A DNA stretch of 64,000 nt, from positions 2,111,001-2,175,000 of the forward strand of contig NC_009943.1 in NCBI RefSeq assembly GCF_000018405.1. The letters run 5' to 3'. Below the pieces are notes generated by a model, which saw only the letters and a program-made list of their open reading frames with translations, did no database searches and had not been told where the DNA came from. The translations under genes and the position numbers were made by a program. The stretch is from Desulfosudis oleivorans Hxd3. GTDB lineage: Bacteria; Desulfobacterota; Desulfobacteria; Desulfobacterales; Desulfosudaceae. This document shows, piece after piece, positions 17,721 to 21,609 of the stretch (within the stretch, counting starts at the first letter, position 1; each line of letters begins with the position of its first letter).

Positions 17721-18828
17721 TCATCGTCCCTTCATAAGAACGGCCTCGATGAAGGGATCAATCTCGCCATCCAGCACACTGTAAACATCTCCGATTTCAA
17801 AGTCTGTCCGGTGATCCTTTGCCTTCTGGTAGGGGTGCAGAAAATAGGACCGGATCTGGCTGCCCCAGGCGATATCGTCCTTACCCGCCTCCATGTCCTG
17901 CAGTTTCTGGTTCTGCTTGTCTTTTTCAAGCTTGTAAAGCCGGGCCCGCAGCACGGCCATGGCAATTTCCCGGTTCCGAAGCTGGGACCGCTCCTGCTGG
18001 CACTGGACCACCACGCCGGAGGGATAATGGGTGATGCGCACCGCGCTGCTGGTTTTGTTGACATGCTGGCCCCCGGCGCCGCTGGCCCGAAAGGTATCAA
18101 TACGAAGGTCTTTTTCGTCGATATCAATATCGATCTGCCGGTCAATCTGGGGAAACACAAACACCGAAGCAAAGGAGGTCTGCCGCTTGCCGCTGGCGTT
18201 AAAGGGGGAAATGCGCACCAGCCGGTGAACACCGGATTCGTTCTTCAGATATCCAAAGGCATTGAGCCCTTTGGCCGAAAAGGTGGCGCTTTTGATCCCT
18301 GCCTCGTCACCGGGCTGATGGTCGATCATCTCCAGCTTGTAGCCCTTGCGTTCGATCCAGCGGGTATACATGCGAAACAGCATCTCGGCCCAGTCCTGGG
18401 CATCGGTGCCCCCGGCCCCGGCGTTGATGGCCACAATGGCGTCAGCCGGGTCGTCCTCATCGGAAAGGGTCAGATCAATGGAAAGCTTTTCAATCTTTTT
18501 CCGAACCCCTTCCACCCGGCGGGTCACTTCGGCGGCGGCATCCGAATCCGCCTCTTCCTCCGCCAGTTCCAGCAGCACCTCCGCGTCCTCCACCTCCCGG
18601 CCCAGTTCGGAAAGCAGATCAAGCCGGTCCGACAGCAGGGATCGCTCCTTTAACAGGGTGGCCGCTCTTTCCGGATCGTCCCAGGCCCCTTCCCTGGCGA
18701 CCAGAGCCTCGATCTCGGCCAGCCGTTCCCTCATGACCGGTTCGTCAAAGATAGCTCCGAAACTGTTCTACCTTTTCATAAGACTCCCGAATCGTCTGCC
18801 GAATTTCCGCGCTGTTGTTAAACACCAT
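17721..18828 (-). CDS. prfB: Peptide chain release factor 2, with programmed +1 frameshift
   Basis: RF2 ends translation at UGA and UAA. The long frame (337 codons from 18734) holds the SPF anticodon-like tripeptide (RISPFNASG) and the GAGGQ hydrolysis motif (ASGAGGQHVNKT). Upstream, a 27-codon frame starts at the ATG at 18828 (MVFNNSAEIRQ) with GGAGG ahead of it and ends in CTT-TGA-C at 18744-18750, the classic RF2 shift site. A +1 slip on CTT joins it to GAC-GAA-CCG-GTC-ATG and gives a protein of about 368 residues. A GGAG lies four bases before CTT as the internal stimulatory site. An annotation that begins at 18734 would miss the N-terminus. Confidence 0.95.
18744..18754 (-). promoter_or_regulatory. 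prfB +1 frameshift site
   Basis: The sequence TATCTTTGAC matches the known RF2 autoregulatory slip site. When RF2 is scarce, pausing at the in-frame UGA (18745-18747) lets the ribosome shift +1 and complete RF2. Confidence 0.93.
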
Positions 18829-18872: not shown

Positions 18873-20501
18873 TCAATGTTTAGAGATTCCCTGAAGTTTT
18901 TGATCTGCTTTCCCGGAACCCCGGGCCGTTCTGAATATATACCACAAAACAAGGATCAAACCCACCAGGCATCCTTTTGCAAACAGGTCACCGTACCGGC
19001 AATAAACGGTCGTTGTTTGCATTACCGGCACGGCCCAGGTCTTCACGCTTTCCACGAAAAGCGGGGTGGCGCCGATGATTTGTCCCGTGGGCGCGATATA
19101 TCCACTGATCCCGGTGTTGGCCGATCGCACAACAGCCCGCCGGGTCTCCACGGCCCGGAACACCACCATGGAAAAATGTTGCCAGGGCGCGCTGGTTCTG
19201 CCGTACCAGGCGTCATTGGTGATATTGATGATCAGGCCGGCGCCGTTCTGAACAATCCGCCGGGCCTGGTAGGGAAAAATAATTTCATAACAAATCTGGA
19301 CTCCCAATGGCAGGCCGCCCATCTCCAGGGTCTGGCCGACGTTTCCGGCCGTAAAATCACCGGCTGCCGCCACAATGGTCCGCACAAAGGGCAGCCACTC
19401 CCGCAAGGGGCCCAGGGGAACGAACTCTCCGAAAGGCACCAGGTGGGTCTTGTCGTACCGGCCGGCGATTTGGCCCTGGGGCGTGATCAGGTAGGCGCTG
19501 TTATAATATTTCACCGCGCCGTTCTCCGTGGCGGCCGCGGGGGCACCGGCCAGAAACCAGGTGCCGGCCTCCCGGGCCGCCGTCAGGACCTTGCGCGTGG
19601 CCACACCGTCATACAGAAAATAAAACGGCATGGCGGTTTCCGGCAGCACCACCAGGTCCGGACCGGTATCAGCGGCCCGGCGGCACAGTGCAAGGTATTT
19701 TTCAACCGTTGCGTCCCGAAAAGCGGCATCCCACTTCTGGTTCTGGTCGATATTGCCCTGGACCACGGCAATCCTTTTTAAGGGCGCATCAGCCATGGCT
19801 CCGGACACCTCTTTCAGACGCCATGTGCCGTAAAACCAGGCACTGACGGCCATGACAAGAAACAGGACCAATAGGAGAAACGCCCCAACCGTTTCAGCTG
19901 CAGGAAACGCTTCTTTTTTGAGCAGCCGGTATATGGCCCAGGCCAGCAGGCTGTTGAACAGCACAACCAGAAAAGAGATGCCGTAGACACCGGTCAGGTC
20001 GGCCATCTGGATCAGGGGCAGTATCCGGTACTGGGAGCAGCCAACCGGCTCCCAGGGAAACCCGGACAGGATAAAGGCGCGGACATACTCCAGGGCCGTC
20101 CATGCCACCGGCGCGACAAGAATGCGAAGAACCGGCCGGTTTCTGACACCGGCGTAAACCGCTGCAAATACACCCAGGTAAAACGCCAGGTAAAGCGAGA
20201 GCAGGAGGAAACACCCGACGGCCAGAACCCAGGGAAGTGCCCCGTAGGTGCGTAGCGTGGGCACCAGCCAGTAGAGCAGGGAAAAATAGTGGGCGCACCC
20301 GGCTGCCAGGCCCGCATAAAACCCCTGCCGGACCGAAGCGCTGTCAAGAACCCGCAGCAGCGGCACAAGGGCGACCCAGGCCAGCCAGGCCATGCCGGTT
20401 TGAGGGAAGGCTCCGGTGAGCAGGAGGCCCGACACCACGGCAAAAAAAACGCCTTGTGCGGAAAACGGGTGCTGTCGATTTTCCGGGGATTGCGGCTTCA
20501 T
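18873..20501 (-). CDS. lnt: Apolipoprotein N-acyltransferase
   Basis: Lnt adds the third acyl chain to the N-terminal Cys of lipoproteins in the inner membrane. About eight hydrophobic segments occupy residues 15-235 and one closes the C-terminus. Between them lies a nitrilase domain with the E-K-C triad: Glu in LPETAMPF, Lys in RYDKTHLVPFGE and Cys in VQICYEIIFP. The length of about 542 residues is normal. The start ATG overlaps the stop of the upstream Sec gene (ATGA), showing coupling. Several lipoproteins are encoded nearby (LpoA-like, alpha/beta hydrolase, TPR). Confidence 0.95.
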   Translation of the reverse strand: MKPQSPENRQHPFSAQGVFFAVVSGLLLTGAFPQTGMAWLAWVALVPLLRVLDSASVRQGFYAGLAAGCAHYFSLLYWLVPTLRTYGALPWVLAVGCFLLLSLYLAFYLGVFAAVYAGVRNRPVLRILVAPVAWTALEYVRAFILSGFPWEPVGCSQYRILPLIQMADLTGVYGISFLVVLFNSLLAWAIYRLLKKEAFPAAETVGAFLLLVLFLVMAVSAWFYGTWRLKEVSGAMADAPLKRIAVVQGNIDQNQKWDAAFRDATVEKYLALCRRAADTGPDLVVLPETAMPFYFLYDGVATRKVLTAAREAGTWFLAGAPAAATENGAVKYYNSAYLITPQGQIAGRYDKTHLVPFGEFVPLGPLREWLPFVRTIVAAAGDFTAGNVGQTLEMGGLPLGVQICYEIIFPYQARRIVQNGAGLIINITNDAWYGRTSAPWQHFSMVVFRAVETRRAVVRSANTGISGYIAPTGQIIGATPLFVESVKTWAVPVMQTTTVYCRYGDLFAKGCLVGLILVLWYIFRTARGSGKADQKLQGISKH

Positions 20502-21472
20502 TTTCCGCTGCCCTTCCATTTTTCAATTTCATCGGTTGCCAGGCCCGCTGCGTGGCGAATGAGCATTCGGCAACGGGACGATGCGGCCATGTGGGCCTGA
20601 AAATCCTTCCGGGACGCAAACCGTTTCCCCGTGACAGCGGCACAGGTGGTACTGCCGGCAGCCTGTTTGAACCGGGCGACCACTTCCTTTCCCACGGCAA
20701 AGGGTTCCCGTTTGGGGGAGGTCTCTTCCAGCAGAAGGTTGATATGGCCGGTCAGAAACGCGCGGACGATGCCGCTGTAAGGGGTGTTTCGGACATTGAG
20801 GCCCAACAGCAGGTTGATTCCCATCACCGCGCCGGCCAGAGCCCCGCACAGGCCGCCGGAGAGCCCCACCCCGCCGTCCAGCACAACGGAAGCCTGTTCC
20901 AGATAAGGATCTCCCAGGCCGGTGTTTTGACGGATGGTCTTGAGCACATCCCCCGCGCAGTGATAGGCCGGGCCGGTTGCCGGCTCCTCAAAGGAGCCTG
21001 GAACCGGCAGTTCCCAATCCCTGGCTTCACTTAGATATCGGGCGGCGCCCCGAACCCGGGCCAGGCAACCGGCCACCTTGTCGCCGGGGATCAGGTAGCG
21101 CGCCTGTCCGGAAAGGGTATAAAAGTCAATGCCGGTACACTCACGGCAGAACTGGGAGCCGAATGCGGTCTCAAACCATTTCACATATTCGCCCACCCGG
21201 TCCAGCAGTGCGGCCTCCGAATTCCTATCACCGCTTTCCAGCGCCTCTGCGTGAACCAGCCCCAGGCCCAGGGAGCCGCCCGTAACCAGGCCGCAGGTGG
21301 CGCCGCTTGCCACGCAGCCGCCTTCCAGGCCGGTGGCGGCCTTCAGCATCCGGTTTTGAGGTGCGCCGATCATGTTCTGGACAACTTCCAGAGCGGCCAG
21401 CCCTCAATTCAGATCCTTGAGCAGGTAGAGCATGCCGCGCCTGCCCCAGTCTTCGGTTTTTTGCCGGTGCAT
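20498..21472 (-). CDS. Tandem C_GCAxxG_C_C redox protein, probable selenoprotein (UGA at residue 23)
   Basis: The open frame from 21373 gives a 291-residue protein with two copies of the C_GCAxxG_C_C family (about 140 residues each, four conserved Cys). Copy 2 is complete: AYHCAGDVLKTI, GLCGALAGAVMG, STTCAAVTG and SSRCRML. Copy 1 has TCGLVTGG, FCRECTG and AGCLARV but lacks the first Cys. Reading further upstream in the same frame gives MHRQKTEDWGRRGM..LKDLN, an in-frame TGA (21404-21406), then GLAALEVVQNMIG. The TGA falls exactly where copy 2 has its first Cys. The ATG at 21472 has GGGAG upstream, while the ATG at 21373 has no good site. A SECIS-like hairpin follows the TGA. The protein would be 324 residues with Sec23. 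A simple nonsense mutation is the alternative. Confidence 0.8.
21376..21406 (-). promoter_or_regulatory. Candidate bacterial SECIS element with Sec UGA
   Basis: After the UGA (21406-21404) come 11 bases, then the stem UCUGGA (21392-21387), loop AGUUG (21386-21382) and UCCAGA (21381-21376). The apical loop begins 18 bases after UGA and has G at its second position, within what is known for bacterial SECIS elements. The stem is short, so this is supportive but not decisive. Confidence 0.6.
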
Positions 21473-21609
21473 TTTCTTTTTCTCCCGATCTGTCTGTCAC
21501 GCATGATGATGCCAGCCCGAGCATGCGATGAAACCTGTTTCTTCCTGGTTCAGCCGGCCCAAAAAAGGCAAGGGGTCGAGGGCCAAAAAAATTGTGAACT
21601 ATACAAGTG

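Follow-up and report, generated by a model that had tools for sequence, protein, structure and literature searches.

A predicted selenocysteine at an in-frame UGA in a two-domain C_GCAxxG_C_C protein of Desulfosudis oleivorans Hxd3

We analysed a window of 64,000 nt from the genome of Desulfosudis oleivorans Hxd3 (contig NC_009943.1), and all coordinates without a contig or locus name refer to this stretch. On its minus strand we observed a reading frame that opens with an ATG at 21472, runs through 22 codons to a TGA at 21406-21404, continues for 301 sense codons and closes with a TGA stop ending at 20498 (Table 1). The TGA at codon 23 is the sole interruption of this frame. An initial annotation of the DNA had extended the frame upstream through this single TGA to an ATG with a ribosome site, and the ATG indeed stands behind a GGGAGA at a distance of 8 nt. 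It had also expected gene callers to start at 21373, which is the earliest ATG, GTG or TTG past the TGA and opens a 291-aa ORF under translation table 11. A caller that does not handle selenocysteine (Sec) would most likely begin at this codon, and 33 N-terminal residues, the key Sec position among them, would then probably be lost from an ordinary annotation. The adjoining lnt and prfB genes are not conserved beside relatives, and no shared neighbourhood theme was found; Pfam assigned the scattered neighbours to methyltransferase, nitronate monooxygenase, DUF362, EamA and lactate racemase families, without a common theme. The prfB gene (RF2; 17721-18828, minus strand) contains a classical programmed +1 frameshift site, CTTTGAC, with its UGA at 18745-18747.

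Table 1 Features of the predicted selenoprotein gene in the window.
Feature	Coordinates	Strand	Detail
Complete coding sequence with in-frame UGA	20498..21472	-	324 aa including predicted Sec23; frame and flanks conserved
Shine-Dalgarno-like GGGAGA	21481..21486	-	8 nt 5' of ATG; direct reading
First 22 codons, motif WGRR...LLKDLN	21407..21472	-	motif kept across relatives
In-frame TGA = codon 23, predicted Sec	21404..21406	-	TGA/Cys interchange in relatives
bSECIS-type hairpin UCUGGA-AGUUG-UCCAGA	21376..21392	-	6 bp, 5-nt loop, G at position 2
Domain 1, C_GCAxxG_C_C type	21053..21424	-	conserved predicted Sec23, Cys60, Cys109, Cys136
Domain 2, C_GCAxxG_C_C type	20534..20965	-	conserved Cys172, Cys209, Cys277, Cys301, all Cys codons

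Pfam recognizes two C_GCAxxG_C_C domains in the protein. The in-frame TGA had been placed opposite the first conserved Cys of the second copy, and a profile-profile alignment of the N-terminal against the C-terminal half paired residue 23 with C172 (probability 97.8, E 7e-13). When the TGA is counted as Cys, positions 23, 60, 109, 172, 209, 277 and 301 are invariant in 27 sequences (the gene's own product and 26 relatives), and Cys136 is nearly so. The protein scores above the cut-offs of both PF09719 (113.5 vs 27) and TIGR01909 (51.4 vs 47.4), and the NCBIfam name of TIGR01909 already includes "(seleno)protein". C-GCAxxG-C-C has been named among the selenoprotein families (PMC9312934), and its selenoproteins have been given as "form 1" and "form 2", with MGD8741185.1 and WP_012158890.1 as published representatives (PMC13188914). 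The present protein shares the TIGR01909/PF09719 domain and signature with these selenoproteins, a match at the level of the family, of which it may represent "form 1"; its two domains lie in tandem, and Sec is predicted at a single position, Cys 1 of domain 1. Two further families align in part. Domain 1 aligns with the DVU_1555 family (NF045669) over residues 19-113, with the whole protein at 54.4 bits and thus below the cut-off of 103 for membership. Residues 16-139 align with the HUGP/GUXX-star fusion selenoprotein (NF045501), a selenoprotein by name too, at 49.6 bits compared to a cut-off of 325, and the GUXX C-terminus is absent here.

We assessed the codon at the Sec site among relatives of the gene. 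Of 389 genomes sampled from the class, 38 (own included) yielded a match with an E of at most 1e-10, and the 30 loci that were read, own gene included, had TGA in 27 cases and TGT or TGC in 3. A scan of contigs brought in further named organisms, among them Smithella (Cys), Desulfobacula, Desulfocicer, a Spirochaetes MAG and many Actinomycetota MAGs; the copy in a MAG named Desulfocicer vacuolatum (L081) bears the TGA. Once duplicates and one short fragment had been discarded, the final set comprised 67 distinct sequences including our own, with TGA in 53, TGC or TGT in 13 and GCA (Ala) in one (L105), whose codon was placed by extrapolating the alignment. This is the interchange that the initial annotation had proposed to look for in orthologues; the random stops that would speak against the Sec reading were not seen, the codon being TGA or Cys with the one Ala apart. 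Relatives with TGA or Cys come from Thermodesulfobacteriota, Actinomycetota MAGs and others. A quick tree, built without bootstrap, requires at least seven Sec/Cys changes, six of them forced by starred, well-supported branches. Loss of the Sec machinery was considered as a general cause of the Cys forms and rejected, since two Cys-form genomes retain selB.

A hairpin with an apical loop AGUUG had been described at a suitable distance past the UGA, and we found it there, its loop separated from the UGA by 17 nt. The bSECIS model specifies a loop of 3-9 nt with a G in the first two positions, a stem of 4-16 bp, a spacing of 16-37 nt and an energy no higher than -7.5 kcal/mol (PMC13188914). Judged by these published constraints, the hairpin conforms in geometry (loop AGUUG, 6 bp, 17 nt); the 6-bp hairpin alone reaches -6.4 kcal/mol, compared to the -7.5 of the model, and the longer local fold reaches -11.8 to -15.5 kcal/mol. 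An Rfam scan of the region returned chance hits only and no SECIS family. We also compared the hairpins with synonymous-codon shuffles that keep the protein, taking other windows of the same genes as controls. The mean z was -1.56 for 27 TGA relatives vs -0.20 for the control windows, and that of the gene itself was a modest -1.9; p-values from these comparisons overstate and are only indicative because the relatives are not independent. The best model-conforming hairpin had a mean energy of -8.2 kcal/mol after the TGA (53 genes), -4.6 kcal/mol at the Sec site of non-TGA relatives (14) and -3.0 kcal/mol after other Cys codons (553), and the hairpin is mostly lost in relatives with Cys at the Sec codon.

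The loop lies 17-18 nt from the UGA in most Desulfobacterota relatives, 26 nt from it in another clade (hairpin GGAGUGCA-GGA-UGCACUCC) and 23 nt from it in most Actinomycetota relatives (GUACCCU-GGU-AGGGUAC). Within the clade with the 17-18-nt spacing, all 6 pairs are kept in 12 of 12 distinct hairpins, and 3 pairs show compensatory changes on both sides. One Cys form from Actinomycetota (L096) keeps an 11-bp SECIS-type hairpin of -13.2 kcal/mol just past its Cys codon, which is consistent with a recent change from Sec to Cys.

The Sec machinery was a further check proposed at the outset, and selA (597 bits), selB (374), selC, the gene for tRNA-Sec (75.1), and selD (374) were all found above their cut-offs in the genome. 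An absence of selB or selC, which would have counted against the Sec reading, was thus not observed. The tRNA-Sec has a UCA anticodon, G73 and CCA. A clear tRNA-Sec(UCA) was present in 26 of 28 gene-bearing genomes; a true tRNA-Sec was not seen in G065 and G158, where the best matches were read as tRNA-Trp by ARAGORN. We detected selB in 14 of 19 gene-bearing genomes tested. Of the five in which selB was not detected, four have selA, whereas the remaining one (G235, 83% complete) has a Cys form; some draft genomes in which selB was not detected bear the TGA. In the Hxd3 genome, selD (locus L019, G000:C1:3893407-3894333) has an in-frame TGA in its GUASK motif, and SelD is itself probably a selenoprotein. 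A second UCA tRNA (locus L003, 1501-1593) scores 54.7 bits to tRNA-Sec, has no encoded CCA, directly follows the ferredoxin-thioredoxin reductase beta gene and resembles a selC* tRNA-Cys; a comparable tRNA occurs in G002 (L147). In two other genomes a second selB stands beside a second tRNA-Sec-like gene (G143:C38:23736-25745 and G087:C31:144350-146832), a selC*-selB* arrangement that has already been described (PMC7609411).

We considered whether the UGA is read as Cys by a selC*-type tRNA-Cys(UCA) acting beside the true tRNA-Sec. Such tRNAs have been reported from delta-proteobacteria, in some cases accompanied by selB* and cysS* (PMC7609411), and the second UCA tRNA of this genome (G000:C1:3561047-3561140, minus strand), with its tRNA-Sec shape, U73, G1-C72 and position ~20 nt past ftrB, would suit this role. 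However, most genomes with a TGA relative have the ordinary tRNA-Sec only, only one selB of the Hxd3 genome scores above cut-off, with no selB* partner seen, and the selection acting on a hairpin of SelB type is in line with Sec and argues against Cys insertion. Since most TGA genomes show no such second tRNA and the genome's own selB is single, we regard Cys insertion as very unlikely to be the main reading.

A second alternative is that the TGA is a true stop, with the protein starting at the ATG at 21373 and the upstream part representing a remnant or a leader peptide. The 291-aa ORF under table 11 agrees with such a start, but domain 1 would then lack its first Cys position, which is invariant, and the upstream residues are conserved in distant relatives, where the codon is TGA or Cys, with one Ala. 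The 22 residues ahead of the TGA are conserved as protein, also in these distant relatives, and protein conservation is present on both sides of the TGA. Nearly all relatives with the TGA lack any other internal stop. Because the same codon is TGA or Cys across relatives, a chance origin of the TGA is excluded, and we give the true-stop reading even less credence than Cys insertion. A frame that is open but for one TGA may at first sight suggest a sequencing error or a pseudogene, but these and unspecific stop read-through, to which we assign a negligible probability, are ruled out by the conserved TGA or Cys at codon 23, the same TGA occurring in dozens of independently sequenced genomes from several phyla, in nearly all without other internal stops.

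On the comparative evidence, the UGA at codon 23 is very probably read as Sec in a two-domain PF09719 protein. The initial annotation had proposed a probable selenoprotein with Sec replacing the first family Cys, and the interchange, the hairpin and the sel genes all agree with this. At the level of sequence it is well supported that the UGA is decoded, that the predicted Sec corresponds to the first family Cys and that the machinery is at hand. The ribosome would read UGA23 as selenocysteine, with the SECIS hairpin 17 nt 3' of the UGA, bound by SelB with Sec-tRNA(Sec), directing the insertion. Sec23, Cys60, Cys109 and Cys136 may form one site in domain 1, and Cys172, Cys209, Cys277 and Cys301 may form one in domain 2. 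With Sec, the selenol/thiol chemistry of domain 1 may be faster or of lower potential, or Sec may help to bind a metal cluster. Since direct reading revealed neither an evident signal peptide nor haem motifs, the protein is probably soluble and cytosolic.

To characterize the fold, we modelled the protein with AlphaFold2 from a 27-row alignment (mean pLDDT 91.9), and the predicted structure is almost all-helical. Neither the protein nor its 27-row profile retrieved a relative from the PDB by sequence, and Foldseek found no significant match in the PDB; the split-Soret cytochrome c 1h21 surfaced only with VIA-align. There, domain 1 matched 1h21 over 134 residues at an rmsd of 2.6 and 16% identity, with a Z of 9.8 compared to 2.5 for the runner-up, where a Z near 10 alone is weak evidence for helical proteins. 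PF09719 also matches the genome's own split-Soret cytochrome at 40.5 bits, and the PF09719 domain of split-Soret cytochrome c carries the same four Cys, lined up by sequence. The similarity is one of PF09719-domain fold only (Z 9.8, 134 residues), not of membership: against the split-Soret cytochrome c family NF047622 the present protein scores 15.9 bits compared to the 400 required, it lacks the CxxCH haem motifs and an evident signal peptide, and its Cys 1 is the predicted Sec. The split-Soret cytochrome c gene of this genome (L055, 1129-1950, minus strand) scores 421 bits to NF047622, has a PF09719 domain and matches 1h21 at E 2e-73.

Abreu et al. in 2003 reportedly described, from 1h21, an iron centre of a new type, possibly [2Fe-2S], for split-Soret cytochrome c. 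The fold match of the model suggests a metal-cluster role for Sec, and we hypothesize a cluster that would be Sec-ligated or Sec-adjacent. The more specific proposal, in which an Fe-S cluster in domain 1 is naturally ligated by the selenium of Sec23 and domain 2 has an all-Cys site of like design, is tentative and, in our estimate, rather unlikely.

Since TIGR01909 and the reviews already name such selenoproteins, the gene adds one member to a known selenoprotein family, and its comparative support is unusually full. What is new in the present analysis is the link to split-Soret cytochrome c, which suggests a possible structure for the Sec site of the PF09719 "putative redox-active proteins". 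The relatives assembled here, 53 with Sec and 13 with Cys, together with at least seven switches and an all-Cys domain in the same chain, offer a clean test set for the role of Sec in a PF09719 domain. If Sec23 does ligate a cluster, the protein would hold a matched Sec-ligated and Cys-ligated pair in one polypeptide, with several natural Sec/Cys switches to compare.
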